Source of the DNA: Macrolepiota albuminosa
Taxonomy: Eukaryota; Basidiomycota; Agaricomycetes; Agaricales; Agaricaceae
NCBI GenBank assembly: GCA_027475525.1
Contig: JAMWFC010000122.1
Location: 868,001-932,000 of the forward strand
Length of the DNA stretch: 64,000 bases
Reading direction: 5' to 3'
The translations under genes and the position numbers were made by a program. Positions within the stretch are counted from its first letter, which is position 1, and each line of letters starts with the position of its first letter. Positions 3,634 to 60,760 of the stretch are shown piece by piece. The notes beneath the pieces were generated by a model. The model did no database searches, had not been told where the DNA came from, and was given only the letters and a program-made list of their open reading frames with translations.

Positions 3634-4640
3634 GAGACATCCTCGACTGCGCTCGCTGGTCTATATAGAATTGGGAACAATGAAAGTGGCAAGTGGCCAG
3701 TGAAAGGGATGTGATATGTAAAGGGGGAATGTGATATTGAGAGGGATAGGAGACAAAGGCGGCGATTCAAGCTGTGCCTGAATTAACCCCGGGCAACCCC
3801 TCCACTCCTACTTGCCCGATCCATGTATGGATCATGTGATTTGAACATGAACTTGCTGATTAATAAATCAAACAAAATATTCAATCATTGGGGCAGTTTT
3901 TTGACCTACTCTAATTTATTCTAATTTTCTTATTTAGTACTTGGTTTGGCCTCCATTTGCCGTTATAACTGCTTTCATTCTTTTAGGCATGCTCTTTATG
4001 AGGCTTTGGCTGTCAGGGGACTCCTCATTTCTTCCTTTTTTCACTCCTTATCTCTTCACTCTCCCTTCATTCATTCTCTTATTTCTTCTGACATTAACTC
4101 CTCATTTCTTCCTTTTTTCACTCCTTATCTCTTCACTCTCCCTTCATTCATTCTCTTATTTCTTCTGACATTATTTCATTTCACTGTTTCTATTCTTTCA
4201 ACACTATCTGTTAGTACTACTCTCAGTCCTTGAGATGCTCTGGTTCTTTAGCTACCATTCAGACAAGTGTGGGCCCTTCAGCACCGCTTCCAGACTGCTT
4301 ATATAAGCCAGAGTTTGCCTTTCTGACTTCTAAAGTCCGGAGTTTTCCTGCCTTGTTTGCACAGTTGTTTGATTAGTCAATTTTCAAGTTTTTAAGGTTT
4401 TGTTGTACTGTACAGTTGTTTTCCATGTTTCAGAAGCCCCAGAAGCATCCAACCTGGCATAGGGAATCTCTAGACTTGTTCTCTTTGGATCTCCCTCTGC
4501 CAGATGAGTAGTTATTATGATATTGTCAGTACATACTCTAATACACCTAGACTTGTTCTCTTTGGATCTCCCTCTGCCAGATGAGTAGTTATTATGATAT
4601 TGTCAGTACATACTCTAATATACTTTGGATCTCCCTCTGC
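3634..4640. other. Gene-free, T/C-rich spacer with repeat relics
   Basis: No coding frame could be supported. The stretch is rich in TTC/CTT runs (3990-4200), and holds one 77-bp and one 74-bp tandem duplication (listed separately). Short plus-strand ORFs here are simple-sequence translations rich in Phe, Leu and Ser. Confidence 0.5.
4020..4173. repeat. Exact 77-bp tandem duplication (assembly-type)
   Basis: 4020-4096 is repeated exactly at 4097-4173 in a T/C-rich non-coding stretch. It is one of 13 duplications in the window with identical period. It is the only one outside the gypsy block, which argues against a property of those elements. Confidence 0.95.
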
Positions 4641-4644
4641 CAGC
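4470..4644. repeat. Imperfect tandem duplication, 74 bp at period 77, plus a partial third copy
   Basis: 4470-4543 matches 4547-4620. A third fragment of about 20 bp follows at 4624-4644. The match stops 3 bp short of a full unit and a third partial copy exists, so this may be a genuine minisatellite or a mixture of a repeat and an assembly join. Confidence 0.8.
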
Positions 4645-5295
4645 TGTGTGACTGAGCCACAGCCTCTAGAGGTTGCTCTTACAAGTACAGCATGATACAA
4701 AAGGACAGCAACAGCAAAAACAGCCACTATTTTCCCATAGGAAATGCTTTTCTTTGACAGACAGAGGCAGCAGATGGTCAGCTTTTGTTGTAGAAGAAGA
4801 GCTTCCCGCAACAGAGGTATTTGCTTTATTGGAGTTCAAAAGCGGCTTCTTTGACTGTCTGAAAACTTTGTCTGCAATCTCTCTTGCACACTTTTCTGAT
4901 TGACAGCAGGCCTCATTGATAAGTCGAATATTGTTAAGCTACTTGTAAAAATCTGTCATCGCATCAAGTTCAAAATGAGATGGTGTACCCAACAACAATG
5001 AATTTTGTTTTTGCAAGTATAAGGCAAAATCCCAAAATGTCTGTTTCTTGTGGTTAAAATTTGCAGAAAGGATACAAATATGGACTTTTGGTTCCTAGTC
5101 AGTGGGCAAATACTTGGAGCGAATCTCCTTCATAAACACATTAAATAAGAGCTTCACCATGTGGTCCCATTGATCCACAATCCAATTCCTCATACAGTGG
5201 TCCTTAATACCCACCAGCAAACAACACACTTGATCCTCTTCTTCAATCTCCTTTGTGTCAGAAAAATCTAGACAGGCCATTTTGTAGTCCTAGCC
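4640..5295 (-). pseudogene. Decayed retrotransposon gag relic with zinc knuckle
   Basis: The minus strand from 5280 reads MACLDFSDTKEIEEEDQVC, then a segment ending FMKEIRSKYLPTD, followed by a stop. The frame then continues with FWDFALYLQKQNSLLLGTPSHF to a second stop near 4930, and then a Cys-rich stretch near 4720 (CFCCCCPFVSCC). The order FMKEIRSKYLPTD, WDFAxxLQxxNxLLxGTPSH and C-F-x-C-x3-F-V is that of gag proteins common in Agaricomycete retroelements. At least two in-frame stops and no recognisable pol downstream mean it is a dead fragment. The family (gypsy or copia) cannot be decided. Confidence 0.55.
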
Positions 5296-19042: not shown

Positions 19043-19830
19043 TGATACTGTCACGACCCCTCCCACCCAGAACCACCCTGGGACATCACTAGAACTCTAT
19101 TCAGGACCCCCCCTCCAACCTCATGACACAACTCTGCCATCACAGCACCATCATGACTACTGACACAGCCATCACATGCATCAAAGGCCACCATCACCCA
19201 GCACCCCCAGCAACCCTGCATCATGGACTCCAGGATCAACCACCATCAAACTGCAATCAATGATTGGATCATGCTACTTGCTTCCGGCCATCACGCATCA
19301 CGCATCACAACTCCCTTCATGCCAATTGATCGCATGCCCTGCACACACAATCCCGGTATACAGTCCCCTTCTCACTACTCAATGTCTCCCAGAACTTATC
19401 CCAGACACCCTGGAATCCTGAGACCTGGACCTGGCCCTGTAGTACTTATAGCGTAGTTCCCCATTGTAATTGCTAGTCTTGATATTACATTTGATTGCTT
19501 GTGTGCCCTTTTGATTGACTGGTATGCACTGACTGGCATGCTGGACTGGCACGCTTTGACTGGCACGCTCAACTTGTTTGCATGCTCTTAAGACTGATAC
19601 GCACTTTGCAACTTAAGCTTCACTAACTGGGTCTCGCCCTAAAACCCCCAGTTCTTAACTTGACTTCATCTGATTCCCAGACTAAGTTCCTTACTCTGGA
19701 AATCCCCCTGTTCACGTCTTGAACCCTGGAGCTCAGTCTGGAGCTCCAGACACCTGAGCATCCATAGATCAAGTCCGCCTTGTAAGGGCATTGCTTTCCT
19801 GAAAAGCCTCCAATTCAGCAGAACCTGATA
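19043..19830 (+). repeat. 5' LTR of gypsy element A1 (788 bp)
   Basis: Begins TGATACTGTCACGACC and ends about CAGAACCTGATA. It aligns over its whole length with 54267-55049, roughly 85% by eye, with mostly C/T and G/A differences. The left flank AAACA does not match the right flank of the A2 LTR, GATAA. Confidence 0.8.
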
Positions 19831-23046: not shown

Positions 23047-24089
23047 TGATAGGCTTCTACTCGGACTGAGCACATCAAGGGACATTATAGGCCGACCAAC
23101 ACTTGACACACTAGAGACTCTAGCAACCAGCCTTGTGTACAGAGCAGCCCTAGCGCAGGCACTCTATGGCAAGACTTATCCATTCATCACAATCACCAGT
23201 ATCAGCCCCTCAGCACACTCCACTCAGTTACTTTGAAGACCAAGAAGGCTCAGAACTCATAGCGCTAGCACAACGGCGGGAGGTGACTCTGACCAAATCC
23301 CAATCAATACCAAAAGGAGTTAGCAAGTGGCGCTGTCAATCACCAAGGCACTTCAATCAGAAGTCTAAAGGAATCAATGACGACAAGACAGGATACACGC
23401 AGACCCAATATTTAAATCTATCAAAAGATGGTACAATGTTTAGCGCTGGAATTAGCGCTCACGGCATCTGTCAAGGATTCCCCGACCATACCCCGGGATG
23501 GCATGGCCAATTAAATTACATCAAAAAGTGAGCAAACTCGTACCATTTCTAAGTAGTTTTAGAGTCGCCGTTGGTCGCCGTCACCCATATGCTGCAGGTC
23601 GCTGTTGACAGGTGGCCATTAGCTACAGCCACGAAGAAAGGCGCTAATTGGTAGCGCTGTCAATGGACTTATTTTAGAAATACCATAGCGCATAATATAA
23701 AAACTAGCTACTTGCCATGTATATACCAACAAATCGTAACCTCTTGAGCACCCAGTTACACTTAGCATTCAAATTGTGCTAGCATTGCCTGACTTTGTCA
23801 CCAAGTTCGGCGCTAGCTTAGTCTATCCCGTCTTCGTCGTTTACGGTGCCACCTACGGGCACGCTACGCTGCGCTATTTGTTTTATTCTCTATAACTTCT
23901 CCTAAACTACGACACTTACCACTTGCTAGGTAGCACCCGAGGTGCTATCATCTAGCGCATCACCCTATCACCTCTGCTTGAGCACACCGGGACCCTGCCA
24001 GGACTCCTCACAAACCCGTACACCAGGCGCTGGAGACGGCGTTGTACTGCGTATACGTCCAGGGCACCCAACTACAGTTGGCGTCATCA
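23047..24089 (+). repeat. 5' LTR of element B (1043 bp)
   Basis: Starts TGATAGGCTTCTAC and ends GGCGTCATCA. It is nearly identical to 46371-47413, and most visible differences are transitions. The PBS region that follows has TGAAGCCCACC, where C and D have TGGAGCCCACY. Confidence 0.9.
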
Positions 24090-24178: not shown

Positions 24179-24332
24179 CGTTTGAACAAACATTGACTGA
24201 GTCACCACACTTACCAGGCATGCTACCGAGACAGACTTTAGACCAGGAACTTGAACGTTTGAACAAACATTGACTGAGTCACCACACTTACCAGGCATGC
24301 TACCGAGACAGACTTTAGACCAGGAACTTGAA
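24179..24332. repeat. Exact 77-bp tandem duplication (assembly-type)
   Basis: 24179-24255 equals 24256-24332, in the leader of element B gag. Confidence 0.95.
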
Positions 24333-24521: not shown

Positions 24522-24675
24522 ACCACTATTCCTACCACGACGTCGACGCCAGCTAATATGGAGCAGGCAAACACACCACGCATGCCGCCAAGAAACCAAC
24601 CACTATTCCTACCACGACGTCGACGCCAGCTAATATGGAGCAGGCAAACACACCACGCATGCCGCCAAGAAACCA
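24522..24675. repeat. Exact 77-bp tandem duplication (assembly-type)
   Basis: 24522-24598 equals 24599-24675. It duplicates the start of the capsid domain of B gag. Deleting one copy puts the flanking frames in register. Confidence 0.95.
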
Positions 24676-24818: not shown

Positions 24819-24972
24819 CCGTGGAATCCTGGACAGGACTGGACAAGTTTCAAGGATTAACACAAGATGCGGTGCCAAGACTGTTTACCTACGAGCCGTG
24901 GAATCCTGGACAGGACTGGACAAGTTTCAAGGATTAACACAAGATGCGGTGCCAAGACTGTTTACCTACGAG
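24819..24972. repeat. Exact 77-bp tandem duplication (assembly-type)
   Basis: 24819-24895 equals 24896-24972, inside B gag. Here one further frameshift remains after removal. Confidence 0.95.
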
Positions 24973-26920: not shown

Positions 26921-28956
26921 AGCGCTTATTTTGGACTATAACCATTGGACTGGGCAAGTAAACTTTATATCACATACCCCTTTAGCCCATGAAATCTTGA
27001 ATTCTTCTTCGTCGCTTACTAGCGAAGCATTATCCTACTTATACCTCACTGCGTCAGATATTACTGAAAACCTTTCAACAGACACTTATTTTGTTTCTAC
27101 TCCCAACTCTAAAGAACCTTTGATATCAGGTTTCGCTAGAAACCATGACTCTATTTATAATACGTTTGCTAACAATAGTACCCCTAAGCACAAAGGGGTT
27201 CAGGTCAAGAAGAAATATAAACCCGTAGCGCTTAAAATGAAACCGGTAGTGAGCGCTGTACCCGAGGAATTTTGCATTGAAAGAAAAATAATAGGCGACC
27301 CTTTGGCTACCCTGCCAAAACTCGATCCAAATCCACCACCCTTCAAACCAACAGGACAATTTACAGAGGAACGAAAGGCGCTATTTCTTAGTGCCCATGA
27401 TACCGGCTTCTCTTGACGGAGGAAATGGATGTATTAGTCGACATCATGCAAAAACAGAATGAGGCTTTCGCATGGGAGGACTCAGAGCACGGTAAACTTA
27501 GAACTGACTTTTTTCCACCAGTGGTTATACTGACAATACCGCACGTACCTTGGACTGAGCATAACCGGCCCATACCCCCGGGCATCAAAGCCGAGGTCTG
27601 CCAAATTATTCGCTCCAAGGTAGCGGCAGGTGTATACAAGCCTTCTAATTCGGCCTACCGCTCGAGATGGTTTTGCGTACTAAAGAAAAACGGGAAGCTA
27701 CGTATAGTCCACAGCCTAAAACCGCTAAACAAAGTCACAATTCGTCATTCAGGGGTACTGCCATTTCCCGATCATGTCACTGAATCTTTTGCGGGGAGAA
27801 TATGTGGCGCTACCCTGGATTTGTACGTTGGCTATGACGAGCGCTTAATCCATCCTTCCTCTCGTGACTTAACGACATTTCAAACGCTACCCTGGATTTG
27901 TACGTTGGCTATGACGAGCGCTTAATCCATCCTTCCTCTCGTGACTTAACGACATTTCAAATGCCATTTGGAGCGCTAAGACTAGTCACACTTCCTATGG
28001 GATGGACAAACTCGGTACCTATCTTTCACGACGATATTACGTTTATCCTACAGCCCGAAATACCCCATCATGTGCTCAGCTTCATAGACGACGTAGGAGT
28101 TAAAGGCCCAAAGGATTGGTGCCTGGTGGATGGCAAGCCCGCAGTATACCTGGAAAATCCTAATATCCATATGGTGCTATGGGACTTCTTTCAACTGGTT
28201 AACCGAGTACTTCAACGCATGAAGTATTGTGGCGGGACGTTTTCAGGGCACAAACTCGTTCTTTGTGCGCCGCAGTTTAAAATTTTGGAGCACGTTTGCA
28301 CACCAGAAGGCAGGATTCCAGAGGAGAGCCGATTAGCGCTGCTGGAGAAATGGGGGGTCTGTCATAACCTCTCGGAAGTTCGTCCGTTCTTGGGCACTGT
28401 AGGGGTGCTGCGCATGTTCATACACCATTTTTCACATCGCACAAACGCCTTTAATTGCCTAACCTGTTCAGGGTTCCCCTTCAAATTCGGACCTGATCAA
28501 ATCAATGCCCAGAAAGACTTAGTAAAGGCGCTACAGGAAGCAAAACCATTGGTGCCCATCAACTATACTACCGCCGATCCCGTTATACTTGCCGTTGACA
28601 CTTCATATATCGCCGTTGGCTTCTTTTTATGCCAGTGTGATGGCGAGAACCGGAAAATTAGGTGCTACAATCGCTTCGGATTGATTACCCTTAACGACCA
28701 AGAATCACGCTACAGTCAGCCCAAGCTAGAGTTATATGGCTTGTTTTGATCGTTTCAGGCGCTGCGCATGTACCTCATTGGGGTACAAAATCTGATTGTC
28801 GAGGTCAACGCACAATACATCAAAGGAATGCTTCAGAACCCTGATATTCAACCTTCAGCCAGTATGAACCACTGGGTAGTAGCGATATTAATGTTTCACT
28901 TTGAGTTAGTACACTTCAGAAGTGCGTTCCACGGGCTGGACGGATTATCTAGGTGA
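26877..28956 (+). pseudogene. Reverse transcriptase-RNase H of element B
   Basis: RT motifs are YRSRWFCVLKKNGKLRIVHS (about 27660), CGATLDLYVGYDERLIHPSS (about 27810), LRLVTLPMGWTNSVPIFHDD (about 27985) and the catalytic box FIDDVGVKGP (about 28080). This is a FIDD variant of the usual YxDD. RNase H shows VILAVDTSYIAVGFFLCQC (about 28580), ESRYSQPKLELYG and the C-terminal FHGLDGLSR. Breaks are a 77-bp duplication (27808-27961) whose removal restores the frame, a TGA at 28747 (LF*SFQ), and a TGA after LSR. Otherwise the domain is in good order. Confidence 0.85.
27808..27961. repeat. Exact 77-bp tandem duplication (assembly-type)
   Basis: 27808-27884 equals 27885-27961, in the RT palm of element B. 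The frames 27413-27925 and 27898-28749 join in register when one copy is removed. Confidence 0.97.
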
Positions 28957-29325: not shown

Positions 29326-30724
29326 TTGCGACGACCATCAGACCTTACAGATACGGAATACGCCACCTTCATTCAATATGCGATGACTTTCTTTATAGTA
29401 GAAGACCGACTTTGGCGACGAAATAGAGATGGCGCCCATAAGCTAGTAATTAAACCGGATAATCGAGTTAGGATTCTACGTGCTATGCATGATGACTTGG
29501 GACACCGAGGACTCTACGTGACGAGGGCAAACCTTTTGGAGCGCTTTTGGTGGCCGCAAGTTAGCGCCGATATTGCGTGGTATATTCGCACTTGTCATCT
29601 CTGTCAAATCCAGCAGACACGTCAGGTTGGCCGCAAGTTAGCGCCGATATTGCGTGGTATATTCGCACTTGTCATCTCTGTCAAATCCAGCAGACACGTC
29701 AGGTCCTGATTCCTCCAACAGTAGCGACTCCAGCACCGTTATTTAGAAAAATATATATTGACACCATGCACATGCCCAAGTCAGGGCGCTACAAGTATAT
29801 CATTCAAGGAAGGTGTTCCTTGGTACATTGGCTGGAGTTTCGTATGCTCCAGCGAGAAAATACAGACGCTATAGCTAAGTGGCTCTTTGAGGACGTTATC
29901 TGCCGATGGGGAGCCCTTCACGAGATTGTTACAGACAACGGAGCGCCAATAGTCAAGGCACTCACTTATCTTGCCAAGAAATACAACATACAACACATCC
30001 GGGTCTCAGGATACAATAAACGTGCCAATGGAATTGTAGAAAGGCCTCATTTCAATATTTGACAGGTGCTATTCAAGACGGTCGATGGTGACAAAAGTCA
30101 CTAGAGCGAGGCAGCTTATTCAGTCTTCTGGTCGGAGCGGGTTACTGTACGAAAGAGGATGGGCTGCTCTCCCTACTATGTGGCGACTGGCACCCACCCC
30201 TTGCTACCTGCGGACGTGGTGAAAGCGACGTACTTACAACCCCCACCAAACTCAATACTATCCTCTACCAACATGATTGCTAGACGCGCTATAGACTTAC
30301 AATGACGCATGGAGGATCTCAAGCGCTTACATGAGGTAGTATTTCAGGCTAGACGACAAGCTGCGCTACGGTTTGAAAGCGAGCATAGCGCTATGATTTG
30401 AGACTACAACTTCACCTCTGGCGCCCTTGTACTAATGCGCAACTCAAAAATCGAAGTTACCCATAATAAAAAGATGCGACCTCGGTATCTGGGACCCCTA
30501 ATAGTGGTTTCCTGCAATAGGGGAGGCGCCTATGTACTCTGCGAGTTGGACGGCTCAGTTTTACATTGACCGGTAGCGGCGTTTCGGCTTATTCCCTACC
30601 TAGCACATGAACACATTTCATTACCTTTGTCGGTGCTGGACATTGACATGGCTAAACTACGAGAACTTGAAGAAACTGAGCTAGTGGACAATGACGAGAC
30701 CACTCCTGATGACGACGCCGAGCA
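29326..30724 (+). pseudogene. Integrase and pol C-terminus of element B
   Basis: The zinc-binding domain MHDDLGHRG...CHLCQ (H-x4-H...C-x2-C) lies at 29487-29610. The DDE core follows, with KIYIDTMHMP (about 29750), EIVTDNGAPIVKAL (about 29920) and RANGIVERPH (about 30030), so D, D and E are all visible. Stops occur at 30060 (CGA or CAG to TGA), 30303, 30400 and 30567-30569. The last lies exactly where C and D also have TGA. A short acidic tail ends at 30727. No chromodomain is seen. A 77-bp duplication at 29551-29704 breaks the zinc domain. Confidence 0.83.
29551..29704. repeat. Exact 77-bp tandem duplication (assembly-type)
   Basis: 29551-29627 equals 29628-29704. It repeats the CHLCQ part of the integrase zinc domain of B, and removal restores one continuous frame. 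Confidence 0.97.
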
Positions 30725-30784: not shown

Positions 30785-30938
30785 CACTCAAGGGACCAAA
30801 AAGCCATAATTTGATGTCATTGAGAAGGACTAACAATGCTACAAATACACTACAAGTACATCACTCAAGGGACCAAAAAGCCATAATTTGATGTCATTGA
30901 GAAGGACTAACAATGCTACAAATACACTACAAGTACAT
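30785..30938. repeat. Exact 77-bp tandem duplication (assembly-type)
   Basis: 30785-30861 equals 30862-30938, just downstream of B pol, with one extra matching base at the edge. Confidence 0.95.
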
Positions 30939-30939
30939 C

Positions 30940-31989: not shown

Positions 31990-32143
31990 TATTTACAGAC
32001 AATACCCTTTTCTTTCTAGGCTGGCACGATAATGGCTATTGGGCCACGCTGGCAAAGGGGTTTTTGTATTTACAGACAATACCCTTTTCTTTCTAGGCTG
32101 GCACGATAATGGCTATTGGGCCACGCTGGCAAAGGGGTTTTTG
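31990..32143. repeat. Exact 77-bp tandem duplication (assembly-type)
   Basis: 31990-32066 equals 32067-32143, between the extra segment and the antisense gene of element B. Confidence 0.95.
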
Positions 32144-34716: not shown

Positions 34717-34719
34717 AAT

Positions 34720-34737
34720 TGGAGCCCACTGCGAGGG
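34720..34737 (+). other. Probable tRNA primer-binding site of element C
   Basis: TGGAGCCCACTGCGAGGG starts three bases after the 5' LTR and opens with TGG, the complement of the tRNA CCA end. D has the same site with CCG for CTG (56407). B has TGA for TGG. The tRNA was not identified. Confidence 0.5.
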
Positions 34738-35096
34738 ATCTCTAGGGCAGAATTCCACCAGAAACCCGTCTCCAGCGTAGGCGCCGCCTGCTAGAACAGT
34801 CGGCAGAAGGCATAGCTCCTTCCCACCCATCAACTCCACAACCACCTGGTGCCTTACCGGGTCTCTCTCTTGCACAGGAACTACAGAACGCCACTGTAGA
34901 CAAATTTCCTGATCTCTTCTCACGTTCTTTTGACTTTAGCACCGACGACCTCTTAGCATCGCCGCTTGCTGTACCACAACCAGTCACCCCCATTACTCCG
35001 CTAACGCCTCTTTCTCAACTCATTTCTCTTACCCCATCGCCAATCTCTAGAACTCCTTTCCCACAACCGCTAACCGAACTCAGTACCACTGTCGCC

Positions 35097-36620
35097 ATGG
35101 AACAACAAGTTCAGTGCATGCCGCCACAAAATCACTTCTCGGCACCGAAATGGGACAAGTCCAAGCCACGGGAGCTCTCCCAGTATTTCAAGGAATTGGA
35201 GTATTTATTCAGGGATTGTGGCATTACTGACCACACACAGATGAAGGAGTACGCGGCAAGATACGTATTGTATGACACGGCAGAGACGTGGACAGGCCTT
35301 GCTGAGTTTGCCGCCTTTGTTCCTGCCACCCCACCCATACCAGCCCAAGGCGCCTCGTATGAAGGCTGGAAGACGGCAGTGATCTAGTTATACCCTGGCA
35401 CTGAAGAAGCTACCCAATACTCAGTAAACGAGCTGCAGAAACTAGTACAGGAATCATTCGACAGCGGCACATCGTCTCTTGGCGCATTCTCCACATATTA
35501 CCGCGAATTCCAAAAGATCGCTAGGTGGTTAGTACAAAACAGCGCACATCGTCTCTTGGCGCATTCTCCACATATTACCGCGAATTCCAAAAGATCGCTA
35601 GGTGGTTAGTACAAAACAGCAAACTATACATTAACAAGGAACACCGCCTATTCCAACAAGGCATCCCGACTTCGCTTTGGACTCGTATTGCTCATCGCCT
35701 AGAGATAGTTCATCAGGCCCATCACCCAGACAAGCCCTATATATAATGTTGCCGACGTCTTTGAAGCCGGTAAATGGGTTCTCAAGGAGACAGACACTGG
35801 TGTTGGGCTGCAACGTGCTAGGACGAGCCCACCACCTGAGTGAACTAACGGTATCATTCCCATCCCACCTCCTGTTGCCGACTTCGTTAAGAAGGAGGAT
35901 CTCAATGCTGCTGTTACCGCTGCTGTCGCTTCCGCCATGACTCGTATTGAAACTATAATTACCACCAATCTCGCTAACCGACCCGCTAATGTACCCGTGT
36001 CTGGCCCTTGCCACTTCTGTGGGGAAATTGGCCACACCATGACTAGAGGACGCTGCGCAACCCTCGAAAATTACATTCGGCAAGAAAGGATTCAAAGGGC
36101 TATTGACGGCAAGATAGTTCTGACCACTGGCGCCACCATCCCCAACTACCTGGACAAGAAGTCTTTCCAGGAACGAGTTGATAAATGGCATAGGCGCAAC
36201 CCAGGACAAATCGTCACCAGCATGCTTTCTGGCAATGCCAACCCCGACCCTGAACAGGCGACCCAACAGCAAACGATCCACGAGGTCTTACACTTCAACA
36301 GCGTTGGCAACCACCCTACTTTCTTGCGAGAAGAACGTATCGCCAAGCTACAGCAGGAGCTAGATTTGCTCAAGAATCAGGTCTTTGATGGGGTTGAAGT
36401 TAAGCAGCCTAAACAACCTCTTAAAGGATACAAGCCAATGCCTCCCGCTCCTGCAGCTCCGCCAGCCACCACTCCAGAACCATCGTCGACCGCTGCCGCT
36501 CCTGAAACACCCTTGCTGCCTTTACATCCCTACTCAGGGATTCCCGACCGTTATCATGCTTCCACACAATGAAATTTTGCCACTCCCGAGAAGCGTCCTG
36601 AGGGTGGCTACCGACCTACC
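35097..36620 (+). pseudogene. Gag of element C
   Basis: MEQQVQCMPPQNHFSAPKWD opens the conserved capsid domain. The frame is open further upstream to about 34743 without an ATG, so the true start is unclear. A zinc knuckle, CHFCGEIGHTMTRGRC, lies near 36010 (H-x6-C, longer than canonical). Breaks are a TAG at 35385 (CAG in D), the 77-bp duplication 35467-35620 (removal restores frame), a frameshift near 35745, and a TGA at 36570-36572 shared with D. The region after the knuckle (HPTFLREERIAKLQQELDLL) is a short coiled coil, then a Pro-rich linker. Confidence 0.83.
35467..35620. repeat. Exact 77-bp tandem duplication (assembly-type)
   Basis: 35467-35543 equals 35544-35620, in the capsid domain of C gag. 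Confidence 0.97.
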
Positions 36621-37531
36621 ATGCCAATTTTTGACATAGAGAAATCAAACCACGTCTTCAACCGCATCATAAAAACCGCCGTCACCTTATCAGTTGAGGA
36701 ACTTTGTAGTATTGCTCCTGACGTTCGCAACCAAGTCAAGATGGCAGTCACTCCTCGACGTCCCTTGGCGACCACCGTTGCCGAGGTCAAGGACCTCAAC
36801 AACGCGCTCCCTGGTTTTTCTGTTACCATTGACTCTCTGGATGCTGAAGACTCTCCTGCCGACACCATCGCTAATGCCACCTCTGTGGACCCAGTAGAGA
36901 CCTATCTTAGGTCAGTAGACCATGGAGAAGACCCAGCAATTCTTATCGTCGCTCAAGAATCGCACGCTATTCGCTCAGTCATGCTAACAGTAGACAACAA
37001 GCACGAGGTAGAGGCAATTGTGGATAGCGGGTCTCAAATCATTTCTATGGCAGCTGAAGTTGCTAAGTAGACAACAAGCACGAGGTAGAGGCAATTGTGG
37101 ATAGCGGGTCTCAAATCATTTCTATGGCAGCTGAAGTTGCTAACGATTTGGGCCTCATCTATGACCCTACAGTGATACTAAACATGCAGAGCGCTAATGG
37201 TATGGTGGACAGATCCCTAGGCCTCGCCAAGAATGTGCCTTGCATCCTTGGCAACATCACGTTTTATCTTCAGATACACATTTTACGCTCCCCGGCATAC
37301 GACTTACTACTTGGCAGACCCTTTGATGTCTTGGCGCAATCAGTTGTCAAGACAGTTACTGACGACGAGACAACTTTAACTATTAGCGACCCCAATTCCG
37401 GAATCCGACAAACGGTGCCAACGTTCCCTAGGGGACAACAAAAAGGCGCCCGCGCTAAGCCCCTGGAGTTTACCGACCAACACGCCAATGAGCCTCCCCA
37501 CCGGTGTTTTCACAGACCATCGAGGAGGTGA
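36621..37531 (+). pseudogene. Protease region of element C
   Basis: The pre-protease segment MPIFDIEKSNHVFNRIIKTA is followed by VEELCSIAPDVRNQVKMAVT. The retropepsin is EAIVDSGSQIISMAAEVAND (intact D-S-G) with SPAYDLLLGRPFDVLAQSVV near 37300. The 77-bp duplication at 36989-37142 copies the active-site loop, and its removal joins 36621-37070 with 37097-37531 in one frame. Without the duplication no stop remains, so the protease itself was probably intact. Confidence 0.85.
36989..37142. repeat. Exact 77-bp tandem duplication (assembly-type)
   Basis: 36989-37065 equals 37066-37142, copying the protease active-site region of element C. Confidence 0.97.
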
Positions 37532-39560
37532 TTGGCAATGATCACAGAGATGTGGCGCTAACGCTGGAATATGACCATTCTACTGGTCTTGTAAATGTTA
37601 TGACTACTGCTTTTCTTGACGAAGACATTTTAACTACTTTATCTGCTACCAACGCTGAGCTTTACCAGAAAAATCAAAACATTACCAACTCCGCTCTAGC
37701 GTACTTGTACCTTACCGCTTCCAAATCCTTTCAAAACATTGCATCTACCGATACTTATCTCACTACCCTTCCCGGAGCATCGTCTCCTGCCGTTCTTGGA
37801 CTTGCCGCCCCTCAGGCTACAGTTCCCCTTTCCACCTCAGTATATAACCAAGCTAACGCTCCCAAAAGGAAAGGGGTTCAAGTCAAAAAGAAATATAAGC
37901 CAGTTGCGCTTAAAACAAAACCCGTCGCCACGCACACTCCCGAGACGTTTAGAATCAAGTGCCAGATCATTGGCGACCCTCTTGCTGACATACCAGCTTT
38001 ATCACCAAATCCGCCACCCTTTCAGCCCACAGGATGTTTTACTGTGGAACGCCAACAACAATTCACGAAGGAGCATGACACAGGATTTTTGACCAAAGAT
38101 GAGTTGAATGTCCTTACCGACCTCGTCGCTAAGCAAAATAAAGCCTTCGCCTGGGAGGACTCGGAACACGGCAGTCTATGTACAGACTTCTTCCCGCCTG
38201 TTGTAATCTCGACCATTCCTCACGTACCGTGGACTGAGCACAACCGACCGTTACCGCCTGGAATCGAAGCCGAGGTCTGCCAAATCATTAGGACCAAGAT
38301 TAAGGCTGGCGTCTACAAACCCTCTAATAGCTCTTACCGCTCCCGGTGGTTTTGTGTCCTCAAAAAGAACGGCAATCTACGCATAGTTCACAGTCTCGAG
38401 CCGCTGAATAGAGTTACAATACGACACTCTGGTGTACCGCCTTTCCCTGACCACGTTGCCGAGTCCTTTGCCGGGCGTGTTTGTGGCGCCACCCTTGACC
38501 TCTACGTTGGCTACGACAAATGCCTCATACACCCTTCTTCCCAAGATCTCACTACTTTCCAGACTCTGTTTGGCGCCTTGCGCCTAGTCACTTTACCAAT
38601 GGGCTGGACAAACTCAGTCCCCATATTCCATGACGACATCACTTTCATCCTCCAACCCGAGGTACCGCATAATGTCCTTAGCTTTATTGATGACGTTGGC
38701 GTCAAAGGCCCCAAAGACTGGCGACTCGTAAACGGCTTACCGGCGACCCATCCCGACAACTCCAACATTTGCTTAGCGCTTTGGGAGTTTTTCCAGCTAC
38801 TCAACCGAGTTCTCCAACATATGAAGTATAGCGGTGGAACCTTTAGTGGCCACAAACTCCTCCTTTGTGCGCCAAGGTTCAAAATACTTGGTCACATCTG
38901 CACTCCCGATGGTCGCGTTCCTGACAAGTCTCGCTTAGCACTCTTGGAGCAATGGGGTCCTTGCCACGACTTATCTGAAGTACACGCCTTTCTTGGTACC
39001 GTTGGCGTGCTCAGGATATTCGTCAAGAATTTTGCCCATTGCGCACATGCCCTTAACCGACTCACCCACGCCAACGAGCCCTTTGAATTTGGGCCAGACC
39101 AGGTCACTGCACAACAAGACTTAGTAAAAGCCCTACAAGACGCCAAACCCCTAGTTCCAATTGATTATAGCTCTGCCAACCCTGTTATCTTGGCGGTGGA
39201 TACCTTGTACATTGCTGTTGGCTACTTCTTGTGCCAGTGCCTTAGCGACAACCGGAAACAGCAACGCTACAACCGCTTTGAGTCTATCATGCTAAATGAC
39301 TGAGAATCTCGCTACAGTCAGCCTAAACTAGAGCTCTATGGACTCTTCAAAGCCTTCCGGTCGCTAAAGATGTATTTGATTGGTGTACGGAACCTTATAG
39401 TTGAAGTTGACGCTAGGTACATCAAAGGCATGCTGCAGAATCCCAATATCCAGCCATCCGCTAGCATGAACTGATGGGTAGTCGCCATCCTCATGTTTCA
39501 CTTTGAGTTGGTACACATCAAGAGCTCTTTCCACGGACCAGATGGACTCTCTAGGCAACC
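37504..39560 (+). pseudogene. Reverse transcriptase-RNase H of element C
   Basis: A 599-codon open frame (37504-39303). The RT shows SSYRSRWFCVLKKNGNLRIV, CGATLDLYVGYDKCLIHPSS, LRLVTLPMGWTNSVPIFHDD, FIDDVGVKGPKDW (catalytic FIDD, about 38690) and HAFLGTVGVLRIFVKNFAHC. RNase H starts near 39185 (VILAVDTLYIAVGYFLCQCL). A TGA at 39301 (aac gac tga; CGA-like) and one at 39475 interrupt RNase H, which continues to the FHGPDGLSR box at 39530-39557. The RT is complete and open, the best-preserved pol domain of the three related elements. Confidence 0.9.
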
Positions 39561-39899
39561 ACGGCAGCCTGGCGACCCGGCAGTGGATCCCCAGGTGGAT
39601 AGCAATTTCGAGGACTGGATCAACAGATTACATGGTTTCGTGCACCTTATACAACAGCCAATCCTCCTACTACGACGGCAACAGCCTGCCAGTATCCTTT
39701 TACATCCCATTGTCCCTTACCGCCCCAAGATCTTTAGCGCACCCCTCACATTCTACATGGCAAGCATCCTTGGACAAGACTTGCCACCAGTAAAAGTTGT
39801 ACAGGAACCCCATCCGCTAAGAGAAGACAGCAAAAACCTGACCTACGATGCCGTTCCCCAATCCGCCAAGGCAAAGGCAGAAGACAGTCGCTTATTAAT

Positions 39900-41252
39900 A
39901 GTTGAACAATGGATACAAGACCTTAAGCGACCTGCAGGCCTTACCAATGAGCAATACATGACCTTTATCCGATATGCCACCCACTTCTTCTTTACCAACA
40001 ACCGCCTTTGGCGACGAAATTGAGATGGCGCTCACAAGCTGATCATCAAGCCAGAAAGTCGCTTACGAGTCCTGCGCACCATGCATGACAAGCTAGGACA
40101 TAGAGGTCTGTATGCTACCTGAGCTTCTCTGTTAGAACGATTCTGGTGGCCACACGCTAGTGCCAACATCGCCTGGTACATTAGGACTTGCCACCTTTGC
40201 CAAATTCAACAAACACGCCAAGTGCTCATACCGCCAACCGTTGCAACGCCAGCTCCCCTCTTCGGCAAAATCTACGTCGATACTATGCACATGCCCAAAT
40301 CTGGTTGCTACAAGTACATTATTCAAGGTCGTTGCTCGCTAATCCACTGGCCTGAATTTTGAATGCTTCAGAGAGAAAATATGGATGCGGTCGCCAAGTG
40401 GCTATTTGAGGACGTCATTTGCCGTTGGGGAGCACTAAGAGAAATCGTCACGGATAATGGTGCACCAATTATCAAAGCGCTAACATATCTCACCAAGAAA
40501 TACAACATTCACCACATTCGAGTATCTGGCTACAACAAACGCGCCAATGGCCTGGTAGAAAGACCACACTTTGACGTTCAGCAAGTGCTCTTCAAGGCAG
40601 TCGATGGCGACGAATCTTGTTGGAGCGAAGCGACCTATTCAGTATTTTGGTCGGAAAGAGTTACTATTCATAAGCGCATGGGTTGTTCCCCCTATTACGC
40701 GGCTACTGGCACCCATCCGTTACTCCCTGCCAACATTATAGAAGCGACCTACCTTCAGCCAGCACCTAACAGCATATTAGCGACTACCGATCTTATCGCC
40801 AGACAAGCCATTGATCTCCAGCGAAGGAAGGAAGATTTAGAGCGACTCCACGAGGTAGTCTTTAGCGCCCGTCGCCAAGCAGCCCTACGATTTGAGATTG
40901 AGCATAGCACTACTATCAAAGATTACAACTTCCTGAGAGGAGCGCTAGTGCTTATGTGCAACTCCAAAATTGAGACTTCATACAATAAGAAAATGCGCCC
41001 GCGCTATCTTGGACCTTTGGTAGTTATCTCTCATAACTGTGGAGGCGCTTACGTGCTCTGTGAATTAGATGGTTCAGTACTACATTGACCTGTTGCCGCC
41101 TTTTGCCTATTACCGTATCTTGCCAGGGAACAGATTGACTTGCTGTTGGAAGCGCTAGATATCGACACTGCCAAGCTTAGGGAACTTGAAGAAACAGAAT
41201 TATTGGACGATGATGATTTGCCGACTCTAGTTGAAGAAGAAGAAAATGATTA
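39900..41252 (+). pseudogene. Integrase and pol C-terminus of element C
   Basis: The zinc domain MHDKLGHRG...CHLCQ (40082-40200) is interrupted by TGA at 40021 and 40120. The catalytic core carries KIYVDTMHMP, EIVTDNGAPIIKAL and RANGLVERPH, so the DDE triad is visible. TGA codons at 40360-40362 and 41086-41088 are shared with D, and the second also with B. The tail AREQIDLLLEALDIDTAKLR ends in an acidic run before TAG. No chromodomain. Confidence 0.85.
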
Positions 41253-43154
41253 GAAAAGACTATATATTGATAAGCTCTTTCTTTCTATTACTTACCTTAC
41301 TTATCTTTCTTGCCGATACTTACTGTACTATATCCAACAGACAATTCCTTACATAGTCAAGTCGCAGCGCTAGCGTGTCGCCAATGCTTAGCACACTGCA
41401 CAACTCTTGCCAAGGGTTTTTTGCTATGATGATTTACTGAGCGTTTCCCTTTTTCCTCAAAAATTTGTCTAAGTCCCCCACCTGCTACTACTTTTGCTAA
41501 AAACCTACCTTAGAATACTTGCTGCTTGCTTTCTCTTTGCTTTACTTTCTTGGCTCTCTGCTGCTGCGCTAACTCAGAATACGGGACTTATTCTTCCACT
41601 CGGCAGGAAGGCGGCAAGAAATATATACACGTGCGGTAACAAACAAAAATATATATACAAACGGCCTATCTACTCTAAGGTCCATTTTCTACATCCGAGA
41701 GCGACAAAGAGTCGTCAAGCGGCAAGAGGTCGCCAACCTGAACGTGGTTGAGGGCTTGCCACTCTAGCGCCTCGTGACAGTCGGCTTGGTATTCCTCGAG
41801 GGTCTCCATGCTACGGGTTAGATTGGAGTACCGGAGTCGCGAAGCCATAATTTGTTGCCGAACTCGTTTGTGCTTGCAACCCAATACCGCACGCATACTT
41901 GCCGCACGTACCCCCATCCGCTCTATAACTTGAGGAGGATACAAGGCCACCACCGGATAAACCAAGTCTTCCCCCAGCCACTCGTAAGAGTCGCTAGCAA
42001 CTCTTGGCTGAGGCTGGGGGGTCCACGACGAAGGCCCACTCGAGCTCGCCCAGTGATGTGTCGCCAAGTCGCCCTCACTTACCCAGGGGGTGGCAGGCTC
42101 CAAGATCGGCAACCCCTGAGACTCGCCAGGGGCCTCCCGCAAAGTTTCCTCTGCCTCACCCTCAGGATCTTCACTGCCACCCTCAGCCTCCTGGTGACTA
42201 TGCGACCCTTCACGTGTTTCCTCGTCCTCGGCTGACGCCTGCATGCCAGTAGGCTCCCCCATAACGACGTCGTCCCCTTCTCCTTGCCAGTGGGTGAAGG
42301 GTCGGCAGGCGTGTTTTCAGGTAAGGTGAAGGGGGACAGCAAGTGGCTGGGGCCAGCCTCACCGCTAACGGGAGGAAGTTTGCTGGCGGCAAGTGCCTCC
42401 TCTAGATCCCTCATCTCGGTGTCCTCAGCAGTTGGAGAGGAGGGGGGCGACTCGATACAAACGCGCTTGGCCTTACTCTTGCCCTTGCTTGGGGAAGGGG
42501 CCTTGCGTTTTTCCTGGCGCTCACCAGCGCCGCGCTTTCTGACTGATTCAGACTCATCTCCTTGGCACGTCGGCAGCGCCAAGGAGGACTTGCTAATCTT
42601 GGCCACTCTCCCAGCGGCAACCTCCTTACGTTCCCCCTCAACAAACTCCCTTGCCCGCTTCACCAGAACCGCCCGGGAAAAAGTCTTCTCGACGAAGAGG
42701 TCAGGCGCACCACCACGCTCACGACTCTTGGTGCTGTCGACCATACAAGCACATTTGAGAGTGCCACATTGGTAACATGGTTGGGCGCCAGTGGGGAACC
42801 AGCAACTTTCGGAGTCATTATTGGCCCAACATTTGTCACACTACCCTTACTTGAGAACCCCAATCATACGAAAAGTTAAAGGCAACTTACCGCTCCATGC
42901 AAATCCTTAAACTCCTGGCGCATCGCCAGGGAAACCGTGCGCTTGTTCTTCATCTCAGGCAGCTCCACTCCTCCCTCAATGCCCTTGTCCAAGACTACGT
43001 CTTCCTGGCGTGGCAAGAGCAAACCCTTCAACTCCTTGTCGTCAAACATCGTCTGACTGGGGAGCTGGGAGAGGGTCAGTAAAAAGGCGGTAAAGAGTCA
43101 CTACAGTATACCTCGTATTGAGGGCCCTTCCCCTTGCGAGACTACCAAAAGTCA

Positions 43155-43308
43155 CTATCGGTAAGAAGAGACGCCAACGACAGCAAACTCACCTTTTTCT
43201 TCAAAGCTTTGCTAGGCTTTGAAGGTGAACCCTATCGGTAAGAAGAGACGCCAACGACAGCAAACTCACCTTTTTCTTCAAAGCTTTGCTAGGCTTTGAA
43301 GGTGAACC
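43155..43308. repeat. Exact 77-bp tandem duplication (assembly-type)
   Basis: 43155-43231 equals 43232-43308. It covers an exon end and donor site of the antisense gene of C. Confidence 0.95.
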
Positions 43309-43448
43309 CGTGTGCCTGCCGCAGTGTGGGGCTCTGAACACTGCCGGCACGAGACCCCTTGCTGGAACCCTCGGCAACGGACTCCTTCTTCTGCTCCTTG
43401 GCGAGCTCTGCCCTCACTACTGCCAAGGTGTGCGCGGCAGTGGCAGCA

Positions 43449-43602
43449 GCAGCCTCCTCCTGTTCCTGCTCGATCTGCAAGCAAGCAAGGGGCTCCAGTA
43501 CCTCCTGTTTACTACGGGGAGATAGGCAGCCTCCTCCTGTTCCTGCTCGATCTGCAAGCAAGCAAGGGGCTCCAGTACCTCCTGTTTACTACGGGGAGAT
43601 AG
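43449..43602. repeat. Exact 77-bp tandem duplication (assembly-type)
   Basis: 43449-43525 equals 43526-43602, inside the coiled-coil exon of the antisense gene of C. Confidence 0.97.
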
Positions 43603-44236
43603 TTCAGTCCATAGCTAGAGAAGGAAAGGTCAGAAGCTACTTACTCGGTTGCCGATGCGCTTACGGTCATCGGCAACGTGCCAGAAAGAATGTCCTCCAG
43701 CTCATCTTCAATAGTGGGGACAGGGGGAGGCACCTAGGGAACAATCAGCTAAGCAACATGGCAGACAGAAGAAACAACTTACAAAACAAGAGAAGGGCGT
43801 CAACCACTTGGCGCCACGATTGTCAATATATCGTGTGCGGCACCACTCCCGCACATCGATTTTGCGATCCCACCCAATGCCAAGGACTCTCACCTCATAC
43901 CATTTTTCCAGCAGCTTCATAACGCCAACCACTAAGTTTGGGGATGCCTCAGCGCCAACACCCTTGATGTGGCAAATGAAACGGTTAGCCTTGGCAATGT
44001 AGGTGTATGCGGCTTCTTGAGCAGCTTGAGAGGGAACGGGGGGTGAAGTTGGAATACGGAAGGACATATTTTTATTATTGAGCGCCAGGTAAAGATGAGA
44101 AGAAGAAACAAAGTCCAAACTCACACGCCAGGACTATAAACAAAATCTCAAGAACGCACGGACCACTTGTCACAAAAGCGGTAACAATAGCCTTATTTGG
44201 TGACTGAGGACAGTCAATTTTTCAGTTGGGGGGAGA

Positions 44237-45179
44237 TGATAGGACCCCATACAGGATCAGCACATCAACGGCAGTCTACGGCAACACGGCACAGGTCCGG
44301 GATACCTTAGCGCGCACTAACTAACCAATTTTGGCAATATTTGACGGCCGCGCATGGCAAGGAGCAGATCCAATCAATGATAGCGCTGACGGCAGACAGA
44401 ATGACAACTGACAGATGGCATCAGTCACTGATGACAGCGCTTAGGGAGAAGCCTGATGATCTATCAAAAGCTGATAGACAGCTTGGCGTCTGCCCTTGGC
44501 GTCTGACACCGCTTAGCGCCTCAATCTGGCGCCTGACATTGCTAAGCATTTTGGACAGACAGAGGGGTGATGGAGTGATGGTTTAGCTTTGCGATCTGTC
44601 GCCTGGCGTTGCTAAGGTTCTTGAATGGACGGTAGGGATCTGAAACCGTTGGAGCTACCCCTATGAAATTTTCTAGTTTACCGCACTTTGGCAATGGTTG
44701 GTCACTGGCGACGGTGAACTCCCTGTAGTATATAAAGTACTTACCGACTTGTAGATAAAAAAAAACAGAATAATAGACCAGAGTTTCCTGCTTCCCTTTC
44801 ATCAGCCTCCCTTATGCTTGAGATCTCATTTACGGTCAGCAACGTCAAGCTCGTCGGCAGTTGCAGACTTCATCGCTAGCCTTCGACTCATTTGCGCCTT
44901 GCATCTACGGCAGGCACCTACAATGCTTAGACTTCGCTAAGCTTACTGTGTTCTTGCCGTTGATATTGCCGTGTTCGCTTACCGCTCCCTTTATAGGCGC
45001 TTTACCTTAGCGCTTTACACTTGCCGACTCCCCTTACCGACTTTTCCTCATTTTCACAGGCGCGTTCTCTGGGACCTGCCTGGGACTCCTCACATCACTT
45101 ATAGCGTGCCCAACGCAAGCAATTGGTACCGGTAACACTATTACTATATTTGTTACTGACCAAACTTTGGGCATCATCA
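44237..45179 (+). repeat. 3' LTR of element C (943 bp)
   Basis: Directly preceded by the polypurine tract GGGGGGAGA (44228-44236). It pairs with 33775-34716. TATA box at 44729-44737. Confidence 0.95.
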
Positions 45180-46370: not shown

Positions 46371-47413
46371 TGATAGGCTTCTACTAGGACTGAGCGCATC
46401 AAGGGACATTATAGGCCGACCAACACTTGACACACTAGAGACTCTAGCAACCAGCCTTGGGTACAGAGCAGCCCTAGCGCGGGCGCTCTATGGCAAGACT
46501 TATCCATTCATCACAATCACCAGTATCAGCCCCTCAGCGCACTCCACTCAGTTACTTTGAAGACCAAGAAGGCTCAGAACTCATAGCGCTAGCACAACGG
46601 CGGGAGGTGACTCTGACCAAATCCCAATCAATACCAAAAGGAGTTAGCAAGTGGCACTGTCAATCACCAAGGCACTTCAATCAGAAGTCTAAAGGAATCA
46701 ATGACGACAAGACAGGATACATGCAGACCTGACATTTAAATCTATCAAAAGATGGTACAATGTTTAGCGCTGGAATTAGTGCTCACAGCGTCTGTCGAGG
46801 ATTCCCCAACCATACCCCAGGATGGCATGGCCAATTAAATTACATCAAAAAGTGAGCAAACTCGTACCATTTCTAAGTAGTTTTAGAGTTGCCGTTGGTC
46901 GCCGTCACCCATGTGCTGCAGGTCACCATTGACAGGTGGCCGTTAGCTACAGCCACGAAGAAAGGCGCTAATTGGTAGCACCGTCAATGGACTTATTTTG
47001 GAAATACCGTAGCGCATAGTATAAAAACTAGCTACTTGCCATGTATATACCAATGAATCGTAACCTCTTGAGCACCCAGTTACACTTAGCGTTCAAATCG
47101 CACTAGCATTGCCTGACTTTGTCACCAAGTTTGGCGCTAGCTTTGTCTATCCCGTCTTTGTCGTTTACGGTGCCACCTACGGGCATGCTACGCTGCGCTA
47201 TTCGTTTTATTCTCTATAACTTCTCCTAAACTACGATGCTTACCACTTGCTAGGTAGCACCCAAGGTGCTATCATCTAGCGCATCGCCCTATCACCTCTG
47301 CTCGAGCACACCGGAACCCTGCCAGGACTCCTCACAAACCCATACACCAGGTGCTGGAGACGGCGTTGTACTGCGTATACGTTCAGCGCACCCAACTACA
47401 GTTGGCGTCATTA
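46371..47413 (+). repeat. 3' LTR of element B (1043 bp)
   Basis: Preceded by the polypurine tract GGGGGGAGA (46362-46370). Same length as 23047-24089. The last bases read TCATTA instead of TCATCA. Confidence 0.92.
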
Positions 47414-54266: not shown

Positions 54267-55049
54267 TGATATCATGACCCTTTCCACCCAGAACTACTCT
54301 GGGACACTACCGGAACTCCATCTGAGACTCTCCCTGACCCCATGACACAACCCCGCTATCACAGTGCCATCACAACTACTGACACAGCCATCACACACAT
54401 CAAAGGCTGCCATCACCCAGCACCTCTGGCAACCCCGCATCACGGACCCCAGGATCAACCACCATCAAACCGTGATCAACAATTTGATCATGCTACTTGC
54501 TTCTGGCCATCACGCATCACGCATCACAACTCTCTTTGCACCAATTGATTGCGCACCTCACACATGCAATCCTGGTATACAGTCTCCTTCCCGCTATTCA
54601 ATGTCTCCCAGAACCTATCCCAGACACCTTGGAACCCTGAGACCTGGACCCAGCCCTGTAGTACTTATAGCATAGTTCCCCGTTGTAATCGCTAGTCTTG
54701 ATATTACATTTGATTGCTTGCGTGCCCTTTAGATTGACTGGTACGCTCTGACTGGCACGCTTGACTGGCATGCTCTGACTGGCACGTTCAATTTGTTTGT
54801 ATGCTTTTAAGACTAGTACACACTTTGCGACTTAAGCTTCACTAACTGGGTCTCGCCCTAGAACCCCCAGCTCTCAACTTGACTTCATCCAATCCCTGGA
54901 CTAAGTTCCTTACCCCAGGAATCCCCCTGTTTGCATCTTGAACCCTGGAGCTCAGTCCAGAGTTCCAGACATCTGAGCATCTGTAGATCAAGTCCACCTT
55001 GTAAAGGCATTGCTTTCCCAGAAAGCCCCCAATTCAGCGGAACCTAACA
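54267..55049 (+). repeat. 3' LTR of gypsy element A2 (783 bp)
   Basis: TGATATCATGACCC ... GGAACCTAACA. It aligns with the A1 LTR at 19043-19830. Confidence 0.85.
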
Positions 55050-56403: not shown

Positions 56404-56723
56404 AATTGGAGCCCACCGCGAGGGATCTCTAGGGCAGAATTCCACCAGAAACCCGTCTCCAGCGTAGGCGCCGCCTGCTAGAACAGTCGGCAGAAGGCAT
56501 AGCTCCTTCCCATCCATCAACTCCACAACCACCTGGTGCCTTACCGGGTCTCTCTCTTGCACAGGAACTACAGAACGCCACTGTAGACGAATTTCCTGAT
56601 CTCTTCTCGCATTCTTTTGACTTTAGTGCCGACGACCTCTTAGCGTCGCCGCTTGCCATACTGCAACCAGTCACCCCCATTACTCCGCTAACACCTCTTT
56701 CTCAACTCATTTCTCTTACCCCA

Positions 56724-58250: not shown

Positions 58251-58259
58251 ATAGAGAAA

Positions 58260-59025
58260 TCCAACCACGTCTTCAACCGCATTATAAAAACCGCCGTCAC
58301 CTTGTCAGTAGAAGAACTTTGCAGTATTGCTCCCGACGTTCGCAACCAAGTCAAGATGGCAGTTACTCCTTGATGACCCTTGGCAACAACTGTTGCCGAG
58401 GTTGATGAACTCGACGACGCACTCCCTGGTTTTTCCGTTACCGTCGACTCTTTGGACGCTGAAGACTCTCCTGCCGACACCATTGCTAACGCCACCTCTG
58501 TGGACCCAGTAGAGACCTACCTTAGGTCAGTAGACCATGGAGAAGACCCAGCAATTCTTATCGTCGCTCAAGAATCGCACGCTATTTGCTCAGTCACGCT
58601 AACGGTAGACAACAAGCACGAGGTAGAGGCAACTGTGGATAGCAGATCTCAGATCATTTCTATGGCAGCAGAAGTCGCTAACAATTTGGGCCTCATTTAT
58701 GACCTACAGTTATACTAAACATGCAGAGCGCTAACGGTACGGTGGACAGATCCCTAGGCCTCGCCAAGAATGTGCCCTGCACCCTTGGCAACATCATGTT
58801 TTATCTTCAGATACACATCTTACGTTCCCCGGCATACGACCTACTACTTGGCAGACCCTTCGACGTCTTGGCACAATCAGGCGTCAAGACAGTTACCGAC
58901 GACGAGACAACCTTAACAATTAGCAACCTCAATTCCGGAATCTGACAAACGGTGCCAACGTTCCCTAGGGGACAACGAAAAGGCACCCGCGCTAAGCCCC
59001 CGGAGTTTACCGACCAACACGCCAA
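58260..59025 (+). pseudogene. Protease region of element D
   Basis: The pre-protease segment ends at a TGA at 58372 where C has CGA. The retropepsin loop reads VEATVDSRSQIISMAAEVAN (D-S-R, catalytic Gly lost). A one-base loss near 58710 breaks the frame before the C-terminal RSPAYDLLLGRPFDVLAQSG. Confidence 0.82.
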
Positions 59026-59040
59026 CGAGCCTCCCCACTG

Positions 59041-60760
59041 GTGTTTTCACAGACCATCGAGGAGGTGATTGGCGACAATCACGGAGATGTGGCGCTAACG
59101 CTGGAATACGACCATTCTACTAGTCTTGTAAATGTTATGACTACTGCTTTTCTTGACGAAGACGTTTTAACTACTCTATCCGCTACCGATGCTGAGCTTT
59201 CCCAGAAAAACCAAAACATTACCAACTCCGCTCTAGTGTACTTGTACCTTACCGCTTCCGAATCCTTTCAAAACATTGCGTCTACTGATACTTATCTCAC
59301 TACTCTTCCCGGAGCCTCGTCTCCTGCCGTTCTTGGACTTGCCACTCCACAGGCTACAATTCCCCTTTCCACCTCTGTATATAACCAAGCTAACGGTCTC
59401 CTGCCGTTCTTGGACTTGCCACTCCACAGGCTACAATTCCCCTTTCCACCTCTGTATATAACCAAGCTAACGCTCCCAAAAGGAAAGGGGTTCAAGTCAA
59501 AAAGAAATATAAGCCAGTTGCGCTTAAAACAAAACCCATCGCTACGCACTCTCCCGAGATGTTTAGAATCAAGCGCCAGATCATTGGCGACTCTCTTGCC
59601 GACATGCCAACCTTACCACCAAATCTGCCACCCTTTCAGCCCACTGGACGTTTTACCGCGGAACGCCAACAACATTTCGCAAAGGAACATGACACAGGAT
59701 TTTTGACCAAAGATGAGTTGAATGTCCTTACCGACCTCGTCGCTAAGCAAAATAAAGCCTTCGCTTGGGAGGACTTGGAATGCGGCAGTCTACGTACAGA
59801 CTTCTTCCTGCCTATCATAATCCCAACCATTCCTCACGTACCATGGACTGAGCACAATCGACCGTTACCACCTGGAATCGAAGGCGAGGTCTGCCAAATC
59901 ATTAGGACCAAGATTAAGGCTGGCGTCTACGAACCTTCCAATAGCTCTTACCGCTCCCGATGGTTTTGCGTCCTCAAAAAGAACAGCAATCTACGCATAG
60001 TTCACAGTCTCGAGCCGCTGAATAGAGTTACAATACAACACTCTGGCATACCGCCTTTTCCTGACCACGTTGCCAAATCTTTTGCCGGGTGTATTTGTGG
60101 TGCCACCCTTGACCTCTACGTTGGCTACAACAAACGCCTCATACACCCTTCTTCCCGAGACCTTACCACTTTTCAAACTCCGTTTGGCGCCTTGCGCCTA
60201 GTCACTTTACTGATGGCGCCCTTAACCGACTCACCCGTGCCAACGAGCCCTTTGAATTTGGGCCAGACCAGGTCACTGCACAACGAGACTTAGTAAAAGC
60301 CTTACAAGATGCCAAACCCCTAGTTCCTATCGACTATAGCTCTGCCGACCCAGTTATTTTGGCGGTGGATACCTTGTACATTGCCGTTGGCTACTTCTTG
60401 TGCCAGTGCCTTAGTGACAACCATAAACAGCGATGTTATAACCGCTTTGGGTCTATTACGCTAAACAACAGAGAATCTTGCTACAGTCAGCCTAAGCTAG
60501 AGCTCTATGGACTCTTCAAAGCCTTCTGGTTGCTAAAGATGTATTTGATTGGCGTACAGAACCTTATAGTTGAAGTTGACGCTAGGTACATCAAGGGCAT
60601 GCTGCAGAATCCCGATATCCAGCCATCCGCTAGCATGAACCGGTGGGTAGTCGCTATCCTCATGTTTCACTTTGAATTGGTACACATCAAGAGCTCTTTC
60701 CACGGACCGGATGGACTCTCTAGGCGACCACGGCAGCCTGGCGACCCGGCAGTGGATCCC
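59041..60760 (+). pseudogene. RT-RNase H of element D with internal RT deletion
   Basis: The fingers and first palm motifs are present (SSYRSRWFCVLKKNSNLRIV, CGATLDLYVGYNKRLIHPSS, FGALRLVTL). The sequence then jumps at about 60216 from VTLLM to ALNRLTRANEPFEFGPDQVT, omitting about 445 bp that in C hold the catalytic FIDD box and the thumb. RNase H (VILAVDTLYIAVGYFLCQCL, ESCYSQPKLELYG, FHGPDGLSRRP) is open from about 60290 to 61099. A 77-bp duplication at 59319-59472 breaks the N-terminal part, and removal restores the frame. Confidence 0.9.
59319..59472. repeat. Exact 77-bp tandem duplication (assembly-type)
   Basis: 59319-59395 equals 59396-59472. Frames 59041-59706 and 59559-60293 become one when a copy is removed. 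Confidence 0.97.

Follow-up and report, generated by a model that had tools for sequence, protein, structure and literature searches.

Why should a single stretch of the Macrolepiota albuminosa assembly contain more than a dozen head-to-tail duplications, unrelated in sequence and all with a period of 77 bp? The stretch in question, hereafter called the window, is the whole 64-kb segment that was analyzed, bases 868001-932000 of contig JAMWFC010000122.1 (C95 in our numbering), in an assembly of 100.1 Mb and 129 contigs. A preliminary description of the window had listed thirteen such pairs and ascribed them to unmerged joins from a de Bruijn assembly at k = 77. Our analysis leads to the same answer: the period-77 pairs are almost certainly assembly errors, namely unmerged K = 77 de Bruijn overlaps, with no biology behind them. 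This explanation is supported by the fixed length of the unit, its wide occurrence (on 13 of 14 contigs), the absence of the second unit from most of the copies aligned at two sites, the shifting position of the pairs between copies at three sites, and the branching of all four units that were searched for throughout the genome.

Fourteen period-77 head-to-tail pairs were identified in the window, with agreement between Tandem Repeats Finder and direct scanning of each period from 10 to 1000. All thirteen pairs listed earlier were recovered at their coordinates, each with period 77. The total fell one short, as the pair at 4470..4623 (C95:872470), in which the two units differ by one mismatch at unit position 75, had been overlooked. 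The earlier statement that the edges stop at 77, occasionally with one more base, was borne out: the exact run is 77 in ten pairs (4020..4173, 24179..24332, 24522..24675, 24819..24972, 27808..27961, 29551..29704, 31990..32143, 35467..35620, 43449..43602 and 59319..59472) and 78 in three, where one chance base is added (30785..30939, 36989..37143 and 43155..43309). The pairs at 24179, 24522 and 24819 lie in the same gypsy-type retrotransposon, the pair at 27808 is in a reverse transcriptase coding region, and that at 29551 is in an integrase region; the pairs at 30785, 31990, 43155 and 43449 are recorded from the scan. At any other period from 10 to 1000, the direct scan found no exact run of at least 40 bases in the window, and chance cannot produce such a set. 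Neither the window nor the 200 kb before it contains any N letters; hence the joins in this region would have been made without gaps.

The same period was found well outside the window. A further 36 period-77 pairs are present in the preceding 200 kb, resulting in a total of 50 in 264 kb of C95, and the other periods (15 to 600) yielded only eight rows in which an exact run reached 35 bases or more over the same 264 kb. Among exact 60-base repeats no more than 5 kb apart in C95, the distance of 77 accounted for 52 entries and any other distance for at most two. A single fixed period in units of unrelated sequence is what unmerged K = 77 overlaps should leave behind. On other contigs, 10-kb samples picked by coordinate alone contained nine pairs (C1), one pair (C25) and one pair (C73). 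Pairs were also found in 10 of 11 loci belonging to one retrotransposon family in other parts of the genome (L025-L035), 26 pairs in total; the exception was L035 on C106, with no pair within its 3.3 kb. An unrelated 26-base minisatellite probe also turned up two pairs of neighbors at a spacing of exactly 77, on C89 and C114. Period 77, the absence of which elsewhere had been named in the preliminary description as grounds for abandoning the assembly explanation, was thus present on 13 of the 14 contigs (of the 129 in the assembly) from which 3 kb or more was read. The C1 sample (L021, C1:100001-110000), with its nine pairs per 10 kb, has a G+C content of 63% and long retroelement-like frames; the other 10-kb samples have 38-52% G+C.

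The lengths of the exact runs bear on whether a cellular process could be responsible. In C95 there are 46 exact runs of 77 bases or more, with lengths of 77, 78, 79, 80 and 81 in 25, 16, 4, 0 and 1 cases, and chance extension of a fixed 77 would give 25.9, 12.9, 4.9, 1.6 and 0.5, respectively (shorter runs were inspected individually). The run lengths therefore fit a fixed 77 with flanking bases that match by chance. Slippage during replication, repair or reverse transcription might be proposed as a source of exact 77-bp tandem duplications, and the constant length is the one observation that speaks for it. However, no process is known to us by which unrelated sequences would be duplicated at one fixed length without spread, the edges fit pure chance extension, and the units that were tested coincide with branch points of an assembly graph, as described below. 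We consider a cellular origin extremely improbable.

If the pairs were genuine tandem duplications passed down within subfamilies of retrotransposons, related copies would be expected to share their breakpoints. The organism's own genome was searched with a 951-base query that covers the pairs at 24179, 24522 and 24819, and 110 matches were obtained; 40 of 416 candidates were scored. Of the 37 other copies for which the alignment crossed 24179, 33 have a single unit there (the query exceeds them by exactly 77) and four ran straight through. At 24522, one unit was present in 35 of 38 copies, with the query longer by 77 (32 copies), 78 (two) or 79 (one); three copies, in four alignments, ran straight through. 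These straight-through copies are a point in favor of inheritance. However, three of the four at 24179 and all three at 24522 possess exact pairs of their own at other positions, and the fourth at 24179, on C24, has only the 58-base period-77 run of L032, which lies further on and maps to 24385. When the exact pairs of the relatives were mapped to the window, they were offset by +6, +14 and +32 from 24179, by -21, +27, +42 and +99 from 24522, and by -34, +14 and +16 from 24819 (three relatives, 14 to 34 bp off); none of the ten coincided with a window pair, the distances ranging from 6 to 99 bp. The pairs at these three sites were hence not inherited, and the 77-base event recurs at different points in different copies. 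One coincidence was observed at 29551, where a single related copy has the pair and the next bases in common with the window. With pairs also present in unrelated sequence, and with a length that is constant at 77, inheritance is in our judgment next to impossible as the source of the pairs.

Two pairs of long direct repeats were observed in the window, 23047-24087 with 46371-47411 (95.3% identical) and 33775-34716 with 44237-45179 (94.7% identical). They are arranged as one long terminal repeat (LTR)-type element nested within another, and no target-site duplications were apparent at the edges of the blast matches. A relative of the inner element starts at 55468 and runs off the window.

Comparison of the inner element (33775-45179) with this relative gave the same difference in length in both directions. 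The inner element is the longer of the two at 35467 (net shift -77) and at 36989 (net shift -79), where it has the pairs; the reverse holds at 59319, where the relative has the pair and the inner element is 77 shorter (net shift +77).

If the units are the shared ends of de Bruijn edges, each 77-mer should occur in more than one context, with different neighboring bases. The sequence compared for recurrence amounts to about 0.33% of the assembly, and for most pairs any recurrence would lie beyond that sample; within it, 15 of the 77 exact units recur and 11 of those 15 branch. Among the loci L025-L035, 11 of 22 units recur and eight of 22 branch, versus 0.54 expected from all positions outside pairs there (nominal P 3e-8, which is only indicative since the loci are related). 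Expressed in another way, eight of the 11 recurring units in these loci branch, compared with a background of 10.5% among 77-mers that have a second occurrence. In C95, four of 46 units recur and three branch, the background of branching being 0.24%; in L021-L023, none of nine units recurs or branches within the sequence compared.

A genome-wide exact search was made for four units of the window (4020, 24522, 29551 and 59319). All four recur, and each has at least one recurrence in which the base immediately adjoining the unit on one side is different, which is the branching expected of 77-mers at unmerged K = 77 overlaps. For the 24522 unit the single recurrence is at C36:610547, with a match that continues for 108 bp to the left of the unit and 0 bp to the right. 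The exact unit at 29551 occurs once at each of 22 other places, 17 of which were examined. In 16 of these the match extends 8 to 27 bp to the left and 0 to the right, the next base differing from that of the window in all 16; at the seventeenth (L054, on C107) the unit is followed by another with one mismatch, after which come the same three bases as in the window. The 59319 unit recurs once, at C89:1050774, with a match that extends 0 bases to the left and 4 to the right. The two single recurrences of the 4020 unit (C106:449571 and C124:259557) both match for 8 bases further to the right; to the left, one matches for 0 bases and the other for 9. The 59319 and 4020 edges are weak tests because the copies agree over a short distance, of about 81 to 94 bases; the units at 24522 and 29551 carry the weight.

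These edges also help to weigh another form of the same class of error, in which a different tool was at fault: either an assembler that works with K-1 overlaps and k = 78, or else a program for gap filling or scaffolding that left a 77-base anchor in duplicate. This is a variant of the explanation that we prefer and is not exclusive of it. All that the data reveal is an unmerged overlap of 77, the step and the program being invisible in the sequence, and this leaves room for such a tool. On the other hand, odd values of k are normal in de Bruijn assemblers, which favors an overlap of K = 77, and a fixed anchor has no need to end where repeat copies diverge, yet the tested units do. We regard a different tool as unlikely.

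Unmerged K = 77 overlaps would arise as follows. A de Bruijn assembler run at K = 77 would output edges or contigs of which neighbors have their terminal 77-mer in common. At some subsequent stage, whether path spelling, scaffolding or gap filling, these neighbors would be set end to end with the shared 77 bases untrimmed, and the junction k-mer would thereby be written twice. The junctions should fall at branches of the graph, that is, where repeat copies (or alleles) cease to be identical over 77 bases; this would make the pairs common in retrotransposons and would have each of the four searched units end where another copy diverges. According to PMC7379835, adjacent edges overlap by K in the majority of de Bruijn assemblers, and SPAdes was run in that work with k of 21, 33, 55 and 77. 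Both a SPAdes-type program and the step that failed to trim are matters that we infer, the program being named because of K = 77 and the convention of an overlap of K instead of K-1.

The repeat context of the pairs was in partial agreement with the preliminary description, in which twelve of the thirteen were placed in repeats. A second copy was found for nine of the 13 (10 of 14 when the added pair is included), a lower bound obtained from about 0.33% of the assembly. Overall, 36 of the 50 pairs in C95 are in DNA with a second copy, versus 49.6% of all bases (nominal P 0.001; likewise a lower bound). These second-copy counts are biased, as some of the compared loci were chosen for matching the sequence at 24179, 24522 and 24819, and short stretches were chosen for the units at 4020, 29551 and 59319.

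It had also been proposed that in seven of the pairs the removal of one unit would bring both flanks into the same reading frame. In the unedited sequence, the registers of protein alignments on either side of the pairs were set against each other, and the alignments reached four of the sites. At 27808, all 121 pairs of alignment pieces showed a displacement of 2 mod 3, which is what 77 gives, the net value being 74 in 111, 77 in 8 and 71 in 2. The displacement was likewise 2 mod 3 in 24 of 25 pairs of pieces at 29551, with scattered net values, and in three of three at 36989. There was no usable pair of alignment pieces at 59319, and alignments running straight through were seen once at 29551 and once at 59319. 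The frameshifts at 27808, 29551 and 36989 are consistent with the insertion of an extra 77-base unit.

Several observations weigh against unmerged K = 77 overlaps as the whole explanation. First, some pairs are imperfect. One-mismatch 77-base pairs are present at C95:815533, at C95:872470 (window 4470), in L021 (two) and in L029, L030, L033 and L054; the pair at C95:746880 has two mismatches, and at C95:691045 the exact run is 76. The one- and two-mismatch pairs require later polishing or base error, and the one-base differences between units suggest that such changes were made after the joins. Second, the pair in L032 (position 2031) matches over only 58 bases and so differs from all the rest; an indel in one of the units is possible. 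Third, the commonest protein-based displacement at 27808 is 74 and not 77. Fourth, 62 of the 77 exact units have no second occurrence within the 0.33% of the assembly that was compared, and four of the 15 recurrent ones are unbranched there. Fifth, one of the two recurrences of the 4020 unit runs past the unit on both sides. Finally, L054, a relative of the 29551 sequence, shares the pair site and the next bases; this could be expected for a shared graph join, and also for inheritance. Taken together, untrimmed joining predicts nearly all that was seen, and an additional event, for example polishing, would be required for the mismatched pairs and the 58-base pair of L032.

The pairs are not a real feature of the genome; they are of no biological interest, and their practical use is as a quality warning. 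Each of them adds 77 bases (2 mod 3), with the result that intact frames appear broken and retrotransposons appear over-decayed, and surveys of tandem duplications or indels in this assembly would be swamped by them. The density in the scanned stretch is about one pair per 5 kb. Extended to the whole genome, this would correspond to about 20,000 joins of this kind and to 1.6 Mb of spurious sequence, an estimate based on 47 pairs in 230 kb that were chosen regardless of pairs (36 in 200 kb plus 11 in 30 kb), or 0.23% of the assembly, mostly from one contig. A scan for exact pairs of period k is thus a cheap check of assembly quality.

Pfam was applied to 20 of the 37 open reading frames of at least 150 amino acids, and four of the 20 matched, all to retroelement domains, one of them above the cut-off. 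The closest match to the retroelement frame at 37504-39300 was a Sphagnurus paluster protein, 64% identical (among the best 120 of 698 matches). At gathering scores, Rfam gave nothing in the window and L021-L023, and no transfer RNA was found in the window. At 19515-19569 and 54734-54786, two related repeats of 0.8 kb, 85% identical to each other, contain a 14-base minisatellite unit. A probe consisting of two consensus units had 60 exact occurrences spread over many contigs, with none in the window. RPB2 from contig C6 was, among the matches listed, 91-96% identical to proteins of Marasmius, Mycena, Agrocybe and Desarmillaria, which we take to be agarics, and 97% identical to one unnamed protein.

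In the literature searched, no prior account of exact k-length tandem pairs was recognized by title or by the opening of an abstract. It is conceivable, although on balance we lean toward doubt, that exact pairs of period k are a general and easily scanned fingerprint of an unreported pipeline fault that also affects other public assemblies produced in the same manner, with tens of thousands of false frameshifts. The pairs resemble the false duplications treated in the available part of PMC9516828 in that the duplicated sequence is absent from the real genome and gene models are disturbed; unlike the pairs, those duplications are driven by heterozygosity or errors and are mostly separated by gaps, and an abutting pair of fixed k length is not described in that portion of the paper. 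The closer likeness is to the edge overlaps of SPAdes-type assemblies at K = 77, as presented in PMC7379835: the overlap is 77, and it consists of a common k-mer at a branch point. The difference is that correct path spelling writes the overlap once, whereas here it is written twice.

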